Source: Thioclava marina (GTDB lineage Bacteria; Pseudomonadota; Alphaproteobacteria; Rhodobacterales; Rhodobacteraceae). Taken from it: a stretch of 64,000 nt of DNA. Below, piece after piece: positions 7,174 to 38,124 of the stretch (position 1 is the stretch's first letter; every line of letters starts with the position of its first letter). The DNA lies in contig NZ_MPZS01000002.1 of assembly GCF_002020135.1 (NCBI RefSeq), forward strand, positions 620,001 through 684,000, written 5' to 3'. The notes under the pieces are model-generated. The model did no database searches. It was not told the origin of the DNA and worked only from the letters and a program-made list of their open reading frames with translations. The position numbers and the translations under genes are program-made.

Positions 7174-7201
7174 GAAAGGGCCACCTCTCGGCAGCCCTTT
7201 C
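7174..7201 (-). terminator. Rho-independent terminator of the TPS operon
   Basis: An 8-bp perfect stem GAAAGGGC/GCCCTTTC with a 12-base loop is followed on the minus strand by TTTGTCG. It lies 23 bases after the tpsA stop codon. The remaining bases 7058-7173 show nothing else recognisable. Confidence 0.7.
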
Positions 7202-7224
7202 CCTGTTTCGCTCTTTGGCAACGC

Positions 7225-10200
7225 TCACTCCGCCGAGGAGATCACCCAGGTGACGCGCGGATCTTCCTCTTCCGCACTGGAACTCGGCAGTCGTATCAAG
7301 GCCCCCGGACGCGTCACGCCCGCGGGGGCACCCGAGGTGGTGGTATAGGGGAAGCCAAGGATATCGGTCTCCACGCCCACCTCGAAGCCATAGCCCTGAC
7401 CGCCATTGACGCCTGCCCCGCCGAGGCGACGGTTCAGTACCAACCCTTCGGTCACGGTCAGGTCGATCCGGTTCGACTGGGTGAAGCTGTACTTGCCGTC
7501 GTTGATCGCCAGCGTCTGCGCATCGGCCACGGTCGAGAGCTGATCGTAGACCGCCTGCGCCAGCACCGAGAAGCCTTGCTGGTAGAACCAGACATCGCCG
7601 CCGATCACCACGTCGAGACCGTTGAGCACCGGCCCGGCATGGCTCACCTGACCCGTCGTGATCCGGCCCCGCACGAGGTTGAGCGGTCCGCGCGCCCTGT
7701 CACGGCCCGTCAGGCGGTCGCGCACATCGTCGAAATACTGGCCCTCTGGGATGAACAGGATCGGACCGTCACCGATCGAAGCCACATCGACATAAGAGGC
7801 CATGCCGTCATCATGCCCGTCGAGGGTCAGCGCGAGCGCATCCTCGGGGGTCATGTCATAGAGCTGGGCGTCGATGTAATCGGCATGCAGCCCCAGCGTC
7901 TTGCGCACGTTCACGAAGCCCGCATAAAGCGTCGAGCCCGGATTGCGCGCACGCAGATCGGCATTGTCGGGCGCCTGTGCCTCGCGCCGCCCGTAGAGTT
8001 CGGGATGGATCAACGCCATCGCGGTCTCATCGGCCAGATCGACGCTCGCCCCTCCGATGATATTCACATGCAGCGCGTCGTCGGCTGCCAGCATCACATC
8101 GGTCCGCGCGCCCAGCACACCAAGCTCCATCGTCCCGCCCATCGTATCGAGATAGAGCCCGCCATTTTGCGAGAGCGCGAAGCCTACCCGCATATCACCC
8201 GCGGTCTCCGTGTAGTTCACGTCGCCATCGGCGTAGAAATGACCCGTGGTGCCGGGGGACATGTCGCCCATGAAGGTCGCGCCGGTCTCGCCGGTGATCG
8301 CACCACCGAAGGCGAAGAGCCGGACATCGCCACCCGACATCGTCGCGCCATCCGAGCGGATATCGCCCGTGCCCGCCGAAATAACGATCGGCGAGGCGTC
8401 ACCGGAGATGACATCGCGCACGGTGATCGGGCCACCCGCATAGAGGTCGATCAGCCCGCTATCGGTGCGCAGCTGATCCAGCCGGATCGCGTCGCGCTCG
8501 TTGAGATGCATCGGACCATTCGCGACCTGCGCCGTGACATGGTCGAAGGCGACCGGTAGCCCATCGGGGCCGACCGGGGTCAGCGCGCCGAGGGTCAGGA
8601 CCGCGCCCGCCCCCGCAGCATTCGCCTCGAGCACCGTGCCGGTCTGGCCCGAAGCGATCGAGAGCGCGCCATCGACCGAGAGGGTCAGCGCCGGGTCAGC
8701 GGTGCTTTGCGTCACCACATGCGATGCGATCATGTCGCCCTTCACGCCGATCTTGATCGTGCCGGTTCCGGCGTCGATCGCGGTCCCGGCCGCCTGTCGC
8801 AGCAGCCCCGCGGACAGGATCGAGATCGCCCCGCCATGGCTGAGAATATCGGCATTCGCGACAAGGCTGGTCACATCCAGACCGAGCGCTCCACCTTGGG
8901 TGGTAATCCCCGGACCTGCCAGCAATGTCAGCGGCGCGTTGGTCGAGCTCAGCGCAATCGCCCCGGAGCCGCCTGCCGTGACCTCTTCGATATCGGTCGC
9001 ACCATCGCGCAGCCCGATCCGGATATCGCCGTCAACGGTCTTCGCGTAGAGGCGTCCGGTTTTCACGTTCAGCGGCGCCGCCGAGCCGATCGCGCCGTTC
9101 GCGCTCAGCTGGGTGCGGCTCGCGATGATGCGGCCCTCGGTGATCGAGCCCGCCGCGACATGCACTTCGTCGGGCGACGAGATGGTGCCGATGGTCAGCG
9201 CTCCGTCCACGACCAGATCGGTCATCGACCCGGCGGTGAGCTGGGTCAGGCTGGTGATCGTCAGATCATCCGCCTCGTGAAGCCAGAACGGCGTGAGCGC
9301 GGTGCCAGTCGCGGCGTAGTTCAGCCCGACAAGCGCGGTCTCGAGGCGCTTGGTCTCGGTGCCGACCGGACCGCCGGTGACGATGGTGAGCGTGCCGCCC
9401 TTCACATCGGTGCCGCTCGATCCGGTGAGATCGATGCCACTTGCCGTGCTCAGCGTCAGGGCCGATGCGGTGCCGAAGCTCACCGTGTCGGTGCCGATGA
9501 AGGACATCAGCGCATCGGTGCTGATGGCCCCGCCGCCCGCGATCGAGGCCCGCGTGATCGGCAGGTCTCCCGTGGCCGTCAGCCAGGCATCGCCCGAAAG
9601 CGTCTCGAGATCGAGTGCGCCGCCATTCGCGGTATCGGTCAGTTCGATCGGAAGCGGCGTGGCCTGCGTGCCAACCGAGGCCCCCGAGAGCGTCAGGCTG
9701 CCCGCACTTATGCGCACCGCACCCGTCGCCAGCGCATCGGTGATCGCACCAGTCGCGCTGATGCGCACCGCACCCGGTGCATAGATCTCGGCCAGGGGCA
9801 GATCGCCGGTCGCCGCGATATTCACCTCGACGCCCGAACGCGCGGTCAGCATGCCACCGGTGCGAACCGCGACGGTCAGCGGGTTGTCCTGCGTCGCGAT
9901 CGGCGCGTCGTTGCCGCTCTCGAGCACGATGATCCGACCCATCACCGCAGGTTCGCTGCCATGGGCATCCGACATCATGCCGTTGATCTTCACCGTCACG
10001 TCGCGCGCTGCGTTCACGAGATGCAGTGCGGCCGGGGTTTCGGCGCCGAGATAGACATCGGTGCCTTCCGAGATCGCGGTGAGCGTACCGACCGGCGCAT
10101 CATTCGCGTCGAAGCCGGTGAAGGCGAAGTTCAGATCCTCGGCCCGGCGCACGACGACCTTGCCGTCAGCGGTGAAGGTCAGATCGGACGGCTCAGCCTG

Positions 10201-31239: not shown

Positions 31240-31316
31240 GGTCCCTTAGCTCAACTGGATAGAGCAGCTGACTTCTAATCAGCAGGTTGAGGGTTCGAGT
31301 CCTTCAGGGATCGCCA
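31240..31316 (+). tRNA. tRNA-Arg (TCT)
   Basis: Cloverleaf: acceptor GGTCCCT/AGGGATC (one G-T pair), D arm GCTC...GAGC, anticodon stem GCTGA/TCAGC with loop CTTCTAA (anticodon TCT), T stem GAGGG/CCTTC (one G-T pair) with loop TTCGAGT, discriminator G and encoded CCA. Confidence 0.97.
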
Positions 31317-31365: not shown

Positions 31366-32334
31366 TCAGGCCCGAGCCGCAACCTGCTCGGCAATGATGC
31401 AGAGCAGCTCGAACATCACCGTCGCGCCGAGATAGGCCGTGCCCCCCGCGGAGTCGAAGGGCGGAGAGACCTCGACGAGATCGGCCCCGACGACCTTCAC
31501 ACCCTTCAGTTCGCGCACCACCTGCAAGGCCTGATAAGAGTTCGGCCCGCCGATCTCGGGCGTGCCGGTTCCCGGCGCGAAAGCGGGGTCGATGAAGTCG
31601 ATGTCATAGGAGATATAGGTGTCGCCCTGCCCGACGATCTCGCGCGCCTCCGCCATCACGTCTTCGACGCCGCGAGCGTGGAATTCCTCGATCGGGATCA
31701 CGCGGATGCCGACAGAGCGGGCGAAATCACGATCCTCCTGATCGTAGGTCGAACCGCGAATGCCGATTTGGCAGACCCGCTTGGGATCGAGCAGGCCTTC
31801 CTCGACCGCGCGGCGGAAGGGCGTGCCATGGGTGTACATCATCCCGTTGAAGTAGGAATGGAAGAGGTCGGTATGGCTGTCGAAATGGATCATGCCCACC
31901 GGCGCTTTTGCCGCCACCGCGCGCAGAACCGGCAGTGAGGTCAGGTGATCTCCGCCTGCCGTCAGCGGCACGATTCCGGCCTCGAGAACGCGCGTGTAAA
32001 ACCGCGTGATCCGGCCCATCGCATCCTGAATATCGGCGGGATTGGGCGAGACATCCCCGAGATCTGCGCAGTTCGCCAACTCGAAGGGGCGCACACGGGT
32101 CGCTCCGTTCTCGGCGCGCAACATCGAGGACATGTCACGAAGCTGGCGCGGCCCGTGACGCGGGCCGGGACGGTTCGTGGTACCGCTATCCCACGGCACG
32201 CCGATCAGGCCGATCTGCACCTCGGAGAGGCGCGCGTCGTCGAGCCCGACATGGGGCAGGCGCATGAAGGTCGGGATACCGGCGTAACGCGGCATCTCCA
32301 TTGCGGAAACGGGGAGGAAGAAGGGATCGTTCAT
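31366..32334 (-). CDS. Agmatinase/guanidinobutyrase-like ureohydrolase
   Basis: A 322-residue enzyme of the arginase/agmatinase family, which hydrolyses a guanidino group to urea and an amine using two Mn ions. All ligand motifs are seen: His130 in AGGDH, Asp152/His154/Asp156 in FDSHTD (Ser replaces the usual Ala), and Asp244/Asp246 in SYDIDFIDPAFAPGTGTPE. The segment MYTHGTPFRRAVEEGLLDP resembles guanidinobutyrase and guanidinopropionase (GbuA/GpuA) more than arginase. It is the last gene of the ABC-transporter / creatininase / SDR operon, which suggests its substrate is a guanidino acid produced by the upstream enzymes. The exact substrate is not deducible. Confidence 0.9.
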   Translation of the reverse strand: MNDPFFLPVSAMEMPRYAGIPTFMRLPHVGLDDARLSEVQIGLIGVPWDSGTTNRPGPRHGPRQLRDMSSMLRAENGATRVRPFELANCADLGDVSPNPADIQDAMGRITRFYTRVLEAGIVPLTAGGDHLTSLPVLRAVAAKAPVGMIHFDSHTDLFHSYFNGMMYTHGTPFRRAVEEGLLDPKRVCQIGIRGSTYDQEDRDFARSVGIRVIPIEEFHARGVEDVMAEAREIVGQGDTYISYDIDFIDPAFAPGTGTPEIGGPNSYQALQVVRELKGVKVVGADLVEVSPPFDSAGGTAYLGATVMFELLCIIAEQVAARA

Positions 32335-32343
32335 CGTGGGTCC

Positions 32344-33090
32344 TCAGGTCATCGCGCTGCCGCCATTCACGCCGAAGACCTGCCCGGTGATGAACCCGGC
32401 GCCGGGTCCGGCGAGAAAGACCGCCATCGCTGCTATTTCCTCGGGCGCTCCAAAGCGTCCGAGTGGGGTGTCGAGATCCTTGGCCAAGGCCTCGGGGCTC
32501 ATGTTCTCGGGGCTCGTCATGTCGGTCACGGTCGAGCCCGGTGCGATCGCGTTCACGAGGATCGCGGGCGCAAGCTCGCGCGCGAGCGAGCGGGTCAGGC
32601 TGACCACGCCCCCCTTGGAGGCGGCATAGGCCGAGAGCCCCTCGCGGCCCAGATGCGCCAGATCCGAGGCGATGGTGATGATCCGCCCGGCCTTGGTCTT
32701 GGCCGCGCTCATCCGGCGCGCCGCCTCGCGCGTGGTCAGGAAACTGCCGCGCAGGTTCACCGCGATCACCCGGTCAAACTGCTCGACCGGCATCTCGGTG
32801 ATCGGGGCTTCGCGCAAGATACCCGCATTGGCCACGACGATATCGGGGGAACCAAGGCGTTCCTCCACCGCATCGAAAAACGCGACCACATCGGCCTCGA
32901 CAGACACATCGGCCGTGAAGGCGAAGGCAGGTCCGAGGGCTGAAAGCTCGGCCTCGGCGCGGCCCGCACGCGGATCGCCCGGATGGCAGATCGCCACGCG
33001 CGCGCCCTCGGCCGCGAGCGCCTTGGCGATCGCAAAACCGATGCCGCGCGTGCCTCCGGTGACGAGAGCGGTCTTTCCCGAAAGCGTCAT
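32344..33090 (-). CDS. Short-chain dehydrogenase/reductase (SDR)
   Basis: A 248-residue classical SDR. It has TGGTRGIGFAIA (nucleotide loop), the strand-4 motif VVANAGI in place of NNAG, and the catalytic Ser and Tyr-x-x-x-Lys (IASDLAHLG...YAASKGG). The C terminus FITGQVFGVNGGSAM is typical. The ATG at 33090 overlaps the TGA of the preceding SDR gene (ATGA). Paired with a second SDR in the operon, it probably oxidises or reduces a hydroxyl/keto group of the pathway intermediate. Confidence 0.9.
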   Translation of the reverse strand: MTLSGKTALVTGGTRGIGFAIAKALAAEGARVAICHPGDPRAGRAEAELSALGPAFAFTADVSVEADVVAFFDAVEERLGSPDIVVANAGILREAPITEMPVEQFDRVIAVNLRGSFLTTREAARRMSAAKTKAGRIITIASDLAHLGREGLSAYAASKGGVVSLTRSLARELAPAILVNAIAPGSTVTDMTSPENMSPEALAKDLDTPLGRFGAPEEIAAMAVFLAGPGAGFITGQVFGVNGGSAMT

Positions 33091-33848
33091 TGCAGGATCT
33101 CTCCGCGGTCGATGGAAATGGCTTGCCCGGTGATATTGGCCGCCGCGTCCGAAGCGAGGAAGAGGTAAAGCCCCGCGACGTCCTTGGGCTCCATCAGTCC
33201 GCCGATGGATTGCGCCGCCATCACCTCGCCCAGAAGCTCGAACTCGGGTCGGCCGGTCGATCGCGACATCGCAGCAAGCGAGGCCATCGCCGCATCGGTT
33301 TTCACCCAGCCCGGGCAGACCGCGTTCACCGTGATCTCGCGCGGGCCAAGCTCGCGCGCCCAGGTGCGCGCCAGCCCGATCATCGCGTGTTTCGAGGCGG
33401 CATAGGCGGAAAACTCCGGCACCGAGGTCTTGCCCCAGATCGAGGAGGTCAGGATCACCCGCCCCCTGTCGCGGATGCGTGAGACCAGAGCGCGCGTCAC
33501 GTTCTGCGTGCCGGTGACATTGACCGAGATCACCCGCTCGAAAGTCTCGTCGGTCGCGGGTGTGGGACCGTTGAGCGGCGTCGGGCGTTCCATCCCGGCA
33601 TTGTTCACCAGCACGTCGAGGCTCTCGATACCCAAGAGCGCATCGGCCAGCGCGGCTCGATCGGAGATGTCGCACAGGATCGGGGTCGCGCCGAGCGCGC
33701 TGGCCGCCGCAAAGACCTCTTCACTCTCGGCCAGGATCGTCAGATCGGCTCCGGCCTTCGCGAAGCCTTCTGCGATGCCGTAGCCAATGCCTCGGCTCGC
33801 CCCGGTGACCAGCACGCGCGTGCCGCTGTAATCGAAAGAGGCGCGCAT
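33087..33848 (-). CDS. Short-chain dehydrogenase/reductase (SDR)
   Basis: A 253-residue classical SDR: TGASRGIGYGIAEGF, LVNNAGMERPTP, catalytic Ser in ILTSSIWGK and YAASKHAMIG, then VNAVCPGWVKTD and ITGQAISIDRG. A Met/Ala/Ser-rich lid (AMASLAAMSRSTG) follows the PGWVKT motif. The ATG at 33848 overlaps the creatininase stop (TGATG). About one-third identical by eye to the next SDR in the operon, so the two are distinct enzymes rather than a recent duplication. Confidence 0.9.
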   Translation of the reverse strand: MRASFDYSGTRVLVTGASRGIGYGIAEGFAKAGADLTILAESEEVFAAASALGATPILCDISDRAALADALLGIESLDVLVNNAGMERPTPLNGPTPATDETFERVISVNVTGTQNVTRALVSRIRDRGRVILTSSIWGKTSVPEFSAYAASKHAMIGLARTWARELGPREITVNAVCPGWVKTDAAMASLAAMSRSTGRPEFELLGEVMAAQSIGGLMEPKDVAGLYLFLASDAAANITGQAISIDRGEILQ

Positions 33849-34627
33849 CAGCCGAGCTCGTAGAATTCGTGTTTCACGGCGGCCGAGATGTCGCGCAGAT
33901 ATTGCGAGGCGATCAGCGCGCCTTTCTCGGGGCTGGCGCCCTTGGCCGAGATCAGCGAGCCCTCTTTCGCGACCCACTCGCGACGCGGCGGCCAGGTGTC
34001 GTAGCAGGGCGCATCGGCGGGTGCGTTGTCGGGTACCTTGTCGAAGAGCACCAGATCGGGGCGGTAATGCATCATCAGCGAGGTCTCGAGCACGGCGGCA
34101 TGTTCCAGCTCGATCCCCGGGTAGCCGTCGGGGAAAACCTGCCCGAGCGTCTCTTCGGTCAGGAACTCCCAATGTTGGAGACACATCACCCGCACGCCCT
34201 TGTCACCGACCTCGCGCATCGCGAGGTCGATCCCCTCGTTGAGGAACCAGAGGTTCTCGTAATTGCCGTCGAGTACGCAGATCCGGCGTGCGCCATGGCG
34301 CACGAGTTCGCGGATGATATCGCGGATGATGCTGCTCAGCGTCTGCCCGTCGAGCCCGGTCGAGCCGGGAAAGAACGGCCCGCCTGCCGAGCGCGTCATC
34401 GACTTGTAGCCATAGGTGACGGGCGCCGCGACCACGCCGCCCACCGCCTCGGCCACATCCTTCGCGATCGCCGAGGGCACGAGATAGTCGAGCCCCATCG
34501 GCAAATGCGGCCCGTGCTGCTCGAGCGCGCCAGTGGGAATGAAGACGACCGGGTTCGATTTCAACGCCTCGGCATATTCGGGCCAGGTCATTTCCGGCAT
34601 CACATGGGTGCGCATCGTCTTGCTCAT
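33848..34627 (-). CDS. Creatininase-family amidohydrolase (creatinine-amidohydrolase-like) with altered metal ligand
   Basis: A 259-residue protein aligning along its length with Pseudomonas creatininase, a dinuclear-metal enzyme that opens the creatinine ring to creatine. Shared features recalled from that protein are GALEQHGPH (Glu36, His38), Asp47, YGYKS, FPGSTGLDGQTL, RELVRHGARR, WEF, EHAAVLETSLM and SAKGASPEKG. The expected metal ligand His in 'NGHYEN' is replaced by Asn122 (DGNYENLWF); Glu124 is kept. This could shift metal choice or substrate. The ATG overlaps the stop of the ABC ATPase gene (ATGA). I infer hydrolysis of a cyclic amide (lactam, hydantoin-like or creatinine-like) imported by the transporter. 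It could instead act on another cyclic amide such as those handled by IolN-type members. Confidence 0.82.
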   Translation of the reverse strand: MSKTMRTHVMPEMTWPEYAEALKSNPVVFIPTGALEQHGPHLPMGLDYLVPSAIAKDVAEAVGGVVAAPVTYGYKSMTRSAGGPFFPGSTGLDGQTLSSIIRDIIRELVRHGARRICVLDGNYENLWFLNEGIDLAMREVGDKGVRVMCLQHWEFLTEETLGQVFPDGYPGIELEHAAVLETSLMMHYRPDLVLFDKVPDNAPADAPCYDTWPPRREWVAKEGSLISAKGASPEKGALIASQYLRDISAAVKHEFYELG

Positions 34628-35412
34628 TCGTGTTGTCCTTCTTCGCGCATCAGGCGCATGATCTTGCGTTCCAGCTCGGCATAGCCGGGCGTCTGAACCA
34701 GCTCTTCCTTGGAGCGGATACGGCCACCGGATTTGAAGGCGGGGATGATCTCTTCCTTCACCCGGCCGGGATGGGCGGAGAGAAAGACGATCTTGTCGGC
34801 AAGGAAGATCGCCTCCTCGATGTCATGGGTGACGATGATCATGCCGGTCTGGGCCTGTTCGGCCACGTCGATCATCAGTTCCTGCATCTGCCAGCGGGTC
34901 TCGGCATCGAGAGCGCCGAAGGGCTCGTCCATCAGCAGAAGTTCGGGCCCGTTGGCGAGCGTACGCGCAATGGCAACGCGCTGGCGCATTCCGCCCGAGA
35001 GCTGGGAGGGATAGGCGTCGAGGAATTTCGACAGGCCCACGAGACGGATGAAATGCTCCGCCCGCTCGCGCCGTTCGGCGGCGGGCACGCCGTTGATCTT
35101 CATGCCGAACTCGACATTGCGGCGCACCGAAAGCCAGTCGAAGGAGGTATAGGCCTGAAAGACCATCCCGCGGTCGCGCCCGGGGCCGGTGACCGGCGTC
35201 TCTCCCAGGGTGATCGCGCCACCCGTCGGCGTCTCAAGCCCCGCGATCATCCGCAGCACCGTCGATTTGCCGCAGCCCGAGGGACCGAGCAGGACCACGA
35301 TCGAATTGCGCTCGACCTCGAAGGAGACCTTGTCGACGGCGGTCAGTTCCCGCCCCTTCGCAAGCGCGAAGGTCTTGGAGACCTCATCGAGATGAAGAAC
35401 AGCCGAGCTCAT
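34624..35412 (-). CDS. ABC transporter ATP-binding protein (SsuB/TauB/NrtD type)
   Basis: A 262-residue ATPase of the nitrate/sulfonate/taurine subfamily. Walker A is GPSGCGKST, the Q-loop VFQAYTSFDWLSV, the signature LSGGMRQRVAIARTLA, Walker B LLLMDEPFGALDAET, and the switch His is in IVTHDIEEAIFLAD. The Phe-Asp-Trp-Leu stretch after the Q-loop is common in this subfamily. It overlaps the permease stop (TGATG) and the creatininase start (ATGA), so it is tightly coupled. Confidence 0.93.
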   Translation of the reverse strand: MSSAVLHLDEVSKTFALAKGRELTAVDKVSFEVERNSIVVLLGPSGCGKSTVLRMIAGLETPTGGAITLGETPVTGPGRDRGMVFQAYTSFDWLSVRRNVEFGMKINGVPAAERRERAEHFIRLVGLSKFLDAYPSQLSGGMRQRVAIARTLANGPELLLMDEPFGALDAETRWQMQELMIDVAEQAQTGMIIVTHDIEEAIFLADKIVFLSAHPGRVKEEIIPAFKSGGRIRSKEELVQTPGYAELERKIMRLMREEGQHE

Positions 35413-36224
35413 CAGCGTTTCTCCTGAAGATAGGGGAAGAGCCAGCGATGCGCGGCCTTGAAGAGCAGGTCGAACAGAAGACCCAGCGCCCCGATGACGA
35501 TGATCCCCGAGAGGATCTCGTCTGTCTTCAGGAAGCGCCGCGCACGCATCATCATCGCACCGATACCGGTGGTCGAGGCGACGATCTCGGCAATCACGAG
35601 ATAGGTCCAGGTCATCGCCAGCATCTGTCGCATTGCGGTGACGATCTCGGGCAGGACGGCGGGCAGCACCACGTTAAGCACCGTCACCTTGCGGTTCGCG
35701 CCCAGCGTCAGCGCGGTCTCGATCAGCTCTTTGCGCACGGTCTTCGTGTGATCCATCACCAGCGTGATCAGGAAGAACACCACCCCGAGGAACAGGAGCG
35801 CCAGTTTCGGCGCCTCGCCCGTGCCGAACCACATCAAGAGGATCGGGATGAAAGAGGGCGCGGGCAGGTAGCGCCAGGCCGAGACGAAGGGCGCGAAGAT
35901 CGCCTCGATGGCGGGAAAGGTTCCCATCATCACGCCCAGCGGGACCGAGAGCGCGCTCGCCATCGCGAAGGCCAGCACCACGCGCCAGACCGAGATTCCG
36001 ATATCGCCGATGAAGCCGCGATCGACGAAGAGGTTCCAGGTGGTCTCGAAGACCTGCACCGGCGAGGGCACGAGCAGCGGGTTCACCATGCCGCTCTCCG
36101 AGGCGATCAGCCAGATGCCGAAGAACAGCACCCAGATGGCGATGGCCGAGAGCACGGCCTGTCGGCGCGAAACGGGGCGCCGAACTTCGAGAAAACGCGG
36201 TTTATGCGGGCTGGGGTGACGCAT
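35412..36224 (-). CDS. ABC transporter permease (SsuC/TauC type)
   Basis: A 270-residue inner-membrane protein with about six hydrophobic segments, the first near residues 25-45 (AIAIWVLFFGIWLIASES). The EAA-type coupling motif ETALTLGANRKVTVLNVVLP lies in the C-terminal half. It matches BPD_transp_1 permeases of the nitrate/sulfonate/taurine transporter class. The long N terminus before the first helix is basic. Separated from the binding-protein gene by a hairpin-bearing spacer. Confidence 0.92.
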   Translation of the reverse strand: MRHPSPHKPRFLEVRRPVSRRQAVLSAIAIWVLFFGIWLIASESGMVNPLLVPSPVQVFETTWNLFVDRGFIGDIGISVWRVVLAFAMASALSVPLGVMMGTFPAIEAIFAPFVSAWRYLPAPSFIPILLMWFGTGEAPKLALLFLGVVFFLITLVMDHTKTVRKELIETALTLGANRKVTVLNVVLPAVLPEIVTAMRQMLAMTWTYLVIAEIVASTTGIGAMMMRARRFLKTDEILSGIIVIGALGLLFDLLFKAAHRWLFPYLQEKR

Positions 36225-36248
36225 GTCAGAGCCTGTCTTGATCAGATA

Positions 36249-36283
36249 CGGACGCCGCCCTTGGTGGGGATGGGCGACGTCCG
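36249..36283 (-). other. Intercistronic hairpin between binding protein and permease genes
   Basis: On the mRNA, a 12-bp stem (CGGACGTCGCCC with GGGCGGCGTCCG, one G-U pair) with an 11-base loop and no U-run. Such spacers commonly protect the upstream binding-protein message from 3' decay, raising its level over the membrane subunits; that role is inferred. Confidence 0.6.
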
Positions 36284-36290
36284 CAGGGGT

Positions 36291-37355
36291 TTACTCGTTC
36301 GGACCGAAGGACTGGCGGTAGCCAGAGGCCACGAGGTCCCCCATCAGCGAGCAGTCGATGGCCGAGGTCACGTCGACCTTGTTGGTCATCAACCCGAGCT
36401 TGATCCACCAGTCATTGGTGAGTGCGGCCGCCTCCGGCATGAAGCCGTTCTTCAGGCCAAGCGGCATGTCACCCTCGAGCACGCCACAGGCTTTCGCGGA
36501 TTCGTCGAAGTCGAACATGTAGATGCCGCCCTCGAAGCTCTTGCCGTTGGTGCCGATGACATACCCGATATCCTCGGCCGGCCATTGCAGGAAATCGGCC
36601 AGCATCTGGTTGGTTTCCTCGACATGGTCGTGCCAGTAGCCCAGACCCTCCCAGCGCGCCTTGAGCACTGCAAGCGCCGCATCGCGGTCCTTCGCGATGA
36701 AGTTCTTGTTCATGTAGAGCGCATCCATGAAGATCCCGGTTTGCAGGACCTCGGGCTTGGACGTGTCGGTGACGCTTTTCGCGCCCGGGCTCGCCTCGAG
36801 AACTTTCGAGATCCAGGGCTCGTACATATAGGCCGCCGAAAGATCGCCCGAGAGCATCGGTCCCACTGCCTCATCGGCATTGAGGTTGACCCATTCGACA
36901 TCACCCGGCGCGATCCCTTCCCCGTCGAGCCAGACACCCATCAGGAGCTGGCCGATATAGGCCTGCGGGGCGGCGACCTTCTTGCCCTTGAGATCGGCGG
37001 CGGTCACATCGGGGGCAAGGATCACGTGATCCACACCGTAAGAGGGGTTGAGCAGCGCGACATTGACGACGTCGGTTCCGCGATCGGCCACCAGCGGCGT
37101 ATAATCCGCGGTGCAGCCGTAGACATCGACCTGCCCCGCCGCGAGCGCCGCATGGCCGCCGAGCGGGTCTTCGAAGATCGTGATGTTCAGGTCGTAATCG
37201 GGGATGAGGTCTTTCTGTTTGGCAACCTCAAGCATCGCGTAGCCCGGCCAGGAGACGCAGACGCCGACATTGACGGTTTCTTTTGCGAAGGCGGCGGTGG
37301 TGCTCAATGCGGCGGCGAGCGTCGCGGCCGGAAGGAGGAGCGGAAGAGTACGCAT
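36291..37355 (-). CDS. ABC transporter substrate-binding protein (SsuA/NMT1-like)
   Basis: A 354-residue periplasmic protein. Signal peptide LPLLLPAATLAAALSTTAAFA is followed by a mature start KETVNVGVCVSWPGYAML, typical of SsuA/TauA/NMT1-like binding proteins. Further matches are the loop DPLGGHAALAAGQVDVYG and KGKKVAAPQAYIGQLLMGVW. The many Trp, Tyr and acidic residues in the cleft region (WPGY, ADYTPL, YMYEPW) would suit a polar, possibly cationic ligand, but this is only suggestive. First gene of the operon, 145 bases from the divergent TetR gene, with AGAGGA 7 bases before the ATG. Confidence 0.9.
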   Translation of the reverse strand: MRTLPLLLPAATLAAALSTTAAFAKETVNVGVCVSWPGYAMLEVAKQKDLIPDYDLNITIFEDPLGGHAALAAGQVDVYGCTADYTPLVADRGTDVVNVALLNPSYGVDHVILAPDVTAADLKGKKVAAPQAYIGQLLMGVWLDGEGIAPGDVEWVNLNADEAVGPMLSGDLSAAYMYEPWISKVLEASPGAKSVTDTSKPEVLQTGIFMDALYMNKNFIAKDRDAALAVLKARWEGLGYWHDHVEETNQMLADFLQWPAEDIGYVIGTNGKSFEGGIYMFDFDESAKACGVLEGDMPLGLKNGFMPEAAALTNDWWIKLGLMTNKVDVTSAIDCSLMGDLVASGYRQSFGPNE

Positions 37356-37401
37356 GATTCGATCCTCTGTGCGTGATGGCTTCTGTCACAATCTTTGTCT
37401 C

Positions 37402-37432
37402 GAAAAATTTTTTAGGCAATAAAAAATTTTTC
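37402..37432. promoter_or_regulatory. AT-only palindromic operator between TetR gene and ABC operon
   Basis: Perfect 13-bp arms (GAAAAATTTTTTA and its complement) flank GGCAA. The element lies in the middle of the 145-base divergent spacer, and its 12 inner arm bases are only A or T in an otherwise GC-rich genome. Position, size (31 bases) and symmetry fit a TetR-family operator controlling both directions; it may also supply -10/UP-like AT content. Confidence 0.65.
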
Positions 37433-37500
37433 TGGCTTAATCTTTCTTGTCCCTTCAAGCTGGACGCGTTAGTCAAGGCTGAATTCAAGGAGGCTCCCTC

Positions 37501-38124
37501 GTGTCCGGGTTGAGAGAAAAGCAGAAGGCAGATCGACGCCGCCGAATCCTCGAAGCGGCGCGCAAGCTCTTTGCCAAGGCCGGTCCCGACGCGACCACGA
37601 TCGAGGCGATCGCCGACGCGGCCGGGGTCTCGGGCGTGACCGTGCACAATTACTACGGAACGAAATCCGGCGTGTTGCTGGCCCTTGTGGCCGAGAGCGA
37701 CCGGGAGCTCCTGGAAAAGATGGCGCGTGAATTGCCCGGGCAAAGCGACGATGTGATCGACCTCGCACGCCGCTTCGCCGCGATCATCCGCGACCACGCG
37801 ATCACCTTCCTCGACAAGGAGATCTGGCGGCAGGTCTTCGCCGCCTCCATCGCCGAGGCGAATTCGCGCTTCGGCAAATCCTATCACTCGCTCGACCATC
37901 AACTCGCGCTGGTACTGGTGCGCGAGATCGAGGTGCTTCAGGCGCGGGACGCGGTCTCTCCGGACGTTTCGGCCTATGATCTCGGCAAGGCGATCTTCAG
38001 CCTTCAGAACATGCGTTTCGTGAATTTCATCTCTTTCGACGAGATGACAGATGTCGAAAGCGATGCGGCCTTTCTGCGTGACTTGCGCTCGATCTTCGGC
38101 GCCCTGCCCCCTGACCGGCGCTGA
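37501..38124 (+). CDS. TetR/AcrR-family transcriptional regulator
   Basis: A 207-residue regulator. The N-terminal HTH covers about residues 12-58: RRRRILEAARKLFAKAG, TIEAIADAAGVSGVTVHNYY then GTKSGVLLALV, the classic TetR pattern with Tyr-Tyr-Gly-Thr-Lys at the end of the recognition helix. The C-terminal ligand-binding domain is helical. The start is GTG at 37501 with AAGGAGG 7 bases upstream. Transcribed divergently from the ABC/creatininase operon, so it most likely represses it until the substrate or an intermediate binds. Confidence 0.9.
   Translation: MSGLREKQKADRRRRILEAARKLFAKAGPDATTIEAIADAAGVSGVTVHNYYGTKSGVLLALVAESDRELLEKMARELPGQSDDVIDLARRFAAIIRDHAITFLDKEIWRQVFAASIAEANSRFGKSYHSLDHQLALVLVREIEVLQARDAVSPDVSAYDLGKAIFSLQNMRFVNFISFDEMTDVESDAAFLRDLRSIFGALPPDRR

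Follow-up and report, generated by a model that had tools for sequence, protein, structure and literature searches.

Which compound does Thioclava marina handle with an operon in which an ABC importer is followed by a creatininase-family amidohydrolase, two short-chain dehydrogenases/reductases (SDRs) and a ureohydrolase? The window, i.e., the whole stretch of 64,000 nucleotides that was analysed, had been described in a sequence-only reading as carrying a seven-gene operon and a divergent TetR gene, and all eight genes were recovered, in the families that it had named, along with a palindrome in front of the operon:

36291-37355, minus strand: NMT1/SsuA-type substrate-binding protein, the first gene of the operon, with a signal peptide-like N-terminus (Pfam NMT1)
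35412-36224, minus strand: ABC permease, TauC/SsuC-like (BPD_transp_1; NCBIfam TauC 149 bits against a cut-off of 342)
34624-35412, minus strand: ABC ATPase, TauB/SsuB-like (ABC_tran; NCBIfam taurine ATPase 235 bits against a cut-off of 357)
33848-34627, minus strand: creatininase-family amidohydrolase (Crn), the proposed ring opener (PF02633, E 3e-52; TIGR04448)
33087-33848, minus strand: SDR1, short-chain dehydrogenase/reductase (adh_short_C2; S-Y-K and Rossmann motifs intact)
32344-33090, minus strand: SDR2, FabG-like short-chain dehydrogenase/reductase (adh_short_C2; motifs intact)
31366-32334, minus strand: ureohydrolase of the GbuA/GpuA (guanidino-acid hydrolase) group, the proposed urea-releasing step (PF00491, E 3e-90)
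37501-38124, plus strand: divergent TetR-family regulator (TetR_N), with homologues similarly placed in most loci
37403-37431, no strand: AT-rich interrupted palindrome in the TetR/binding-protein intergenic region, a probable TetR operator

The answer that we favour, and hold to be reasonably probable, is that the operon lets the cell take up and degrade a small guanidino compound with a ring (a cyclic acylguanidine, or guanidino-lactam). Its genes are tightly packed, with stops and starts that overlap by 1 nt (permease/ATPase), 4 nt (ATPase/Crn), 1 nt (Crn/SDR1) and 4 nt (SDR1/SDR2), and with gaps of 66 nt between binding protein and permease and 9 nt between SDR2 and ureohydrolase. A survey that used the window's binding protein alone as its query matched 45 loci in named genomes; 41 of these had the transporter and both SDRs in a constant order, and a divergent TetR gene accompanied most of them. 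Since the gene set is repeated in 41 loci, the association far exceeds chance, and the proposal that these genes form one conserved catabolic unit was upheld; their scattering in related genomes, which the earlier reading had named as a ground for abandoning it, was looked for and was not what we found. The 41 loci span Alpha- and Gammaproteobacteria (Rhodobacterales, Hyphomicrobiales, Halomonadaceae, Ectothiorhodospiraceae and Marinobacterium), and the hosts are chiefly marine or halophilic, e.g., Thioclava, Aliiruegeria, Thalassovita, Tropicimonas, Hoeflea, Roseibium, Oricola, Marinobacterium, Halomonas and Ectothiorhodospiraceae, with some soil bacteria as well. A motif check found the SDR motifs intact in 44/45 SDR1 and 44/44 SDR2 homologues; the PDB relatives of the SDRs were generic. 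The ureohydrolase was absent nearby in three fully flanked loci (L062, L073 and L081), a point against the favoured reading.

Within Thioclava the binding protein is patchy (10/16 genomes). A tRNA-Arg gene (tct, 31240-31316) lies just past the end of the ureohydrolase gene, convergent with the operon, and is a possible insertion point; the idea of an island there was not sustained, as the asparaginase/BioY flank was not syntenic with the tRNA in four other Thioclava genomes and no empty site was seen.

The palindrome at 37403-37431 is unique in the window, with none expected by chance. A strict pattern proved too tight (8/39 loci), and scoring was therefore by graded match: the consensus AAAATTTTTATTGnATAAAAAnTTTT was matched at 17 or more of 26 positions in 38/39 loci, of all three types described below, vs. 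0.1% of 1719 control stretches. That the operator is common to the three types supports one common signal, and control by TetR through the palindrome is the mechanism that we infer. Riboswitch control was considered, and an Rfam search near the operon returned only a tRNA.

What supports the proposed ring opening as a core step is the enzyme that takes the place of Crn at other loci. The 41 loci fall into three architectures: type A, with Crn before the SDRs (15 loci, the window included); type B, with Crn after the SDRs (11 loci), its Crn only about 41% identical to that of type A; and type C, the 15 loci without Crn, in every one of which the gene for a PuuE-like hydrolase of the NodB fold adjoins TetR. 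No Crn locus, of the 26, has the PuuE-like gene, so that the two hydrolases never occur together. On a tree of the binding proteins the three architecture states need at least four changes, and the PuuE state at least three. The best named relatives of the PuuE-like hydrolase include the allantoinase PuuE, whose substrate is “a small cyclic imide” (PMC3084791). The PuuE-like hydrolase scores so far under the cut-off of the PuuE equivalog (84 bits, cut-off 425) that it constitutes a distinct subfamily. The repeated swaps suggest the same job for both enzymes, namely hydrolysis of a cyclic amide, and the predicted ring-opening step has its strongest evidence in the fact that one slot is filled by cyclic-amide hydrolases of two unrelated kinds. 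A ring opener had also been sought downstream of the ureohydrolase in the Crn-less loci, and none was there.

The claim that the ureohydrolase is GbuA/GpuA-like was borne out at the level of sequence, which predicts a guanidino-acid hydrolase. Its best solved relative is the 3-guanidinopropionase GpuA (408 bits, 58% identity), and the binuclear metal ligands (H, DxHxD, DxD) are kept in 38/38 ureohydrolases. Tyr157, a specificity residue according to Lee et al. (2011), is likewise kept in 38/38. All 38 also have an arginine at the equivalent of GbuA Arg72, a residue that reaches in from the neighbouring subunit and could contact the substrate carboxylate (PMC9772407). In active-site loop 1, the residue Asn154 is Phe in 22/38, including the window, Asn in 15 and Gly in one, and because of this change the exact substrate of GpuA need not apply. 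A second ureohydrolase subgroup, used by Shinella and Gemmobacter, is without the Arg72 and Tyr157 equivalents and therefore probably has another substrate; at L041 (a Roseovarius THAF9 plasmid, 7181-8143), L093, L098 and L137 its members, about 80% identical to one another, lie in or beside the enzyme module. The ureohydrolase homologues of Ruegeria pomeroyi and Paroceanicella were considered as module members and both proved to lie outside it. In R. pomeroyi (megaplasmid locus L096, 7985-9966) two adjacent arginase-family genes, the second 68% identical to the window ureohydrolase, accompany a glycine-betaine-type ABC importer; metformin hydrolase is a known case of a two-subunit ureohydrolase.

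The enzymes also occur in other company. Shinella has ureohydrolase-SDR-SDR-PuuE with an APC permease, Gemmobacter has the same series with a cytosine-permease (NCS1) homologue, and Rhizobium CIAT894 combines Crn, ureohydrolase and SDRs with a class V aminotransferase; the pairing of the module with NCS1 or APC permeases implies that the pathway is defined by its enzymes and not by one transporter. In two distant clusters (L141 and L142) an isochorismatase-family hydrolase joins Crn and both SDRs, as does a fatty-acid-desaturase-like protein, and no ureohydrolase match was found in either; such a replacement, which we count in favour of the main reading, is as expected if these clusters acted on a ureide analogue. 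In Salipiger an NtaA/DmoA (FMN) monooxygenase accompanies Crn and SDRs, and no ureohydrolase was found nearby, a further point against the favoured reading. At L130 and L131 a fatty-acid-desaturase-like protein and a spermidine/putrescine-type importer adjoin an SDR1 homologue, and L130 also has a PuuE-like gene. In these desaturase and monooxygenase variants, hydroxylases may supply the alcohol for oxidation by the SDRs. On plasmids of Rhizobium and Phyllobacterium (L123 and L124) a PuuE-like hydrolase, an agmatinase-family gene, a class V aminotransferase and an amino-acid ABC importer occur together without SDRs, possibly a related pathway in these legume symbionts.

The L141 and L142 clusters lend some weight to the alternative that survives best, unlikely as we judge it to be: that the imported cyclic amide or imide has no guanidino group (it might be, e.g., a hydantoin-type ureide), the ureohydrolase attacking some other amidine, such as a formimino group. 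Arginase-family enzymes do also hydrolyse formimino compounds, and there was an NCBIfam hutG match, under its cut-off; the window ureohydrolase, however, is much closer to GpuA and GbuA than to formiminoglutamase, and at the Arg and Tyr positions it agrees with the guanidino-acid hydrolases.

Next in standing, and a poor prospect in our estimation, is an ordinary creatinine operon, in which Crn would be a true creatininase and the genomic creatinase would split creatine, unless the ureohydrolase did so as an analogue of creatinase. The window Crn, whose fold matches creatininase with a TM of 0.85, does pass the TIGR04448 creatininase cut-off (318 vs. 235 bits) and is the only creatininase-family gene of the genome. 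The residues tell against this reading. Numbered on the P. putida creatininase, E34, H36, D45, E122, E177 and H178 are kept in the module Crn, whereas H120, a metal-ligand position, is Asn in the window Crn and most of its type A relatives, and Trp174 of the substrate flap, which has a role in holding creatinine, is Ile in the window and Ile, Phe, Tyr or Thr in all module Crn. Trp174 was the target of published creatininase mutants (PDB titles 3a6e, 3a6f), and it is kept in six creatininases outside the module (L034, L036, L043 and L046 among them), three of which adjoin a creatinase. The loss of Trp174 and the H120N change thus make the classical creatinine route unlikely here. No creatinase was found at the window's operon or at the module loci, except near L069, which itself has no Crn, and creatinine breakdown has no role for two SDRs.

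The earlier statement that creatinase and urease are missing stands for the window and fails for the genome: urease is encoded elsewhere, and a true creatinase, which scores 520 bits against the P. putida creatinase 1chm, lies on another contig (C3:414579-415763; L161, L168), a point in favour of creatinine. Against this, creatinase occurs in 10/16 Thioclava genomes, comprising the three of type A and genomes without Crn, and is absent from the two of type B, a distribution in which it does not track Crn. The substrate is probably not creatinine, and the contention that this is something other than the classical creatininase-creatinase route was sustained.

The binding protein (AlphaFold pLDDT 90.7) has TauA, SsuA, Thi5 and ThiY-type proteins as its nearest folds, at 12-20% identity, and since these bind sulfonates, pyrimidines, nitrate and others the fold was uninformative as to ligand. 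That the operon encodes a sulfonate or taurocyamine importer, joined to unrelated enzymes merely by co-regulation, is very improbable: the Tau/Ssu proteins are the nearest to all three transporter components, but each scores far under its NCBIfam equivalog cut-off, no desulfonating enzyme was found among the Pfam families of the operon genes, and the enzyme module also travels with other transporters.

For the cyclic guanidino compound that we prefer as substrate, the route would run as follows, its chemistry, step order and guanidino substrate all being proposals. The NMT1-type ABC transporter would import the compound, under the control of TetR acting through the AT-rich palindrome; the creatininase-family enzyme would hydrolyse the ring amide to yield a guanidino acid; the two SDRs would oxidise or reduce a hydroxyl or carbonyl group, before or after ring opening; and the GpuA-like ureohydrolase would release urea and leave an amino acid, the urea being a potential source of ammonia through the genomic urease. 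We know of no counterpart to the SDR step in any known guanidine pathway, and this counts against the proposed route. The resemblance to GpuA points weakly to two carbons between the guanidino and carboxyl groups and hence to a six-membered ring of the 2-amino-4-pyrimidinone type. A more specific proposal, which we put forward as tentative and rather doubtful, is a widespread and hitherto undescribed pathway of nitrogen acquisition from a cyclic acylguanidine with six ring members (of the 2-amino-4-pyrimidinone or reduced pterin type), in which creatininase-family and PuuE-family ring openers are interchangeable and the GpuA-like ureohydrolase acts last.

In the open-access literature, searched for creatininase in combination with ureohydrolase, agmatinase, Trp174, SDR or Ruegeria, no description of such a pathway or operon was found. 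Each of the enzyme families is known; what appears, provisionally, to be new is the way they are combined, the exchange of one ring opener for another and the diagnostic substitutions in Crn. Many marine bacteria have genes annotated as creatininase or agmatinase that probably bear the wrong name and belong to a single unrecognised pathway, and knowing the ligand would bring to light a naturally occurring cyclic nitrogen compound consumed by marine and soil bacteria. The swap of two unrelated ring openers makes a direct functional test possible.

Set beside known systems, the operon is in each case alike in part. With the TauABC and SsuABC sulfonate importers its transporter shares fold and subunit composition, and differs in its sub-cut-off scores and missing desulfonase. 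With the classical creatinine route (creatininase, creatinase, sarcosine oxidase) it shares ring opening by a creatininase-family enzyme and a later release of urea, but it has an arginase-family ureohydrolase in place of a creatinase at the locus, two SDRs, a Crn that has lost Trp174 and, in the window, H120, and elsewhere a PuuE-like alternative opener. PuuE, among the NodB-type cyclic-amide hydrolases, opens a small cyclic ureide, and its relative in the type C loci substitutes for Crn, although as a separate subfamily. The likeness to P. aeruginosa GpuA (and GbuA) consists in 58% identity to GpuA, all of the metal ligands, Tyr157 and the Arg72 equivalent; the window ureohydrolase departs from GpuA in the Phe at Asn154 and in its setting among a ring opener, SDRs and an ABC importer.
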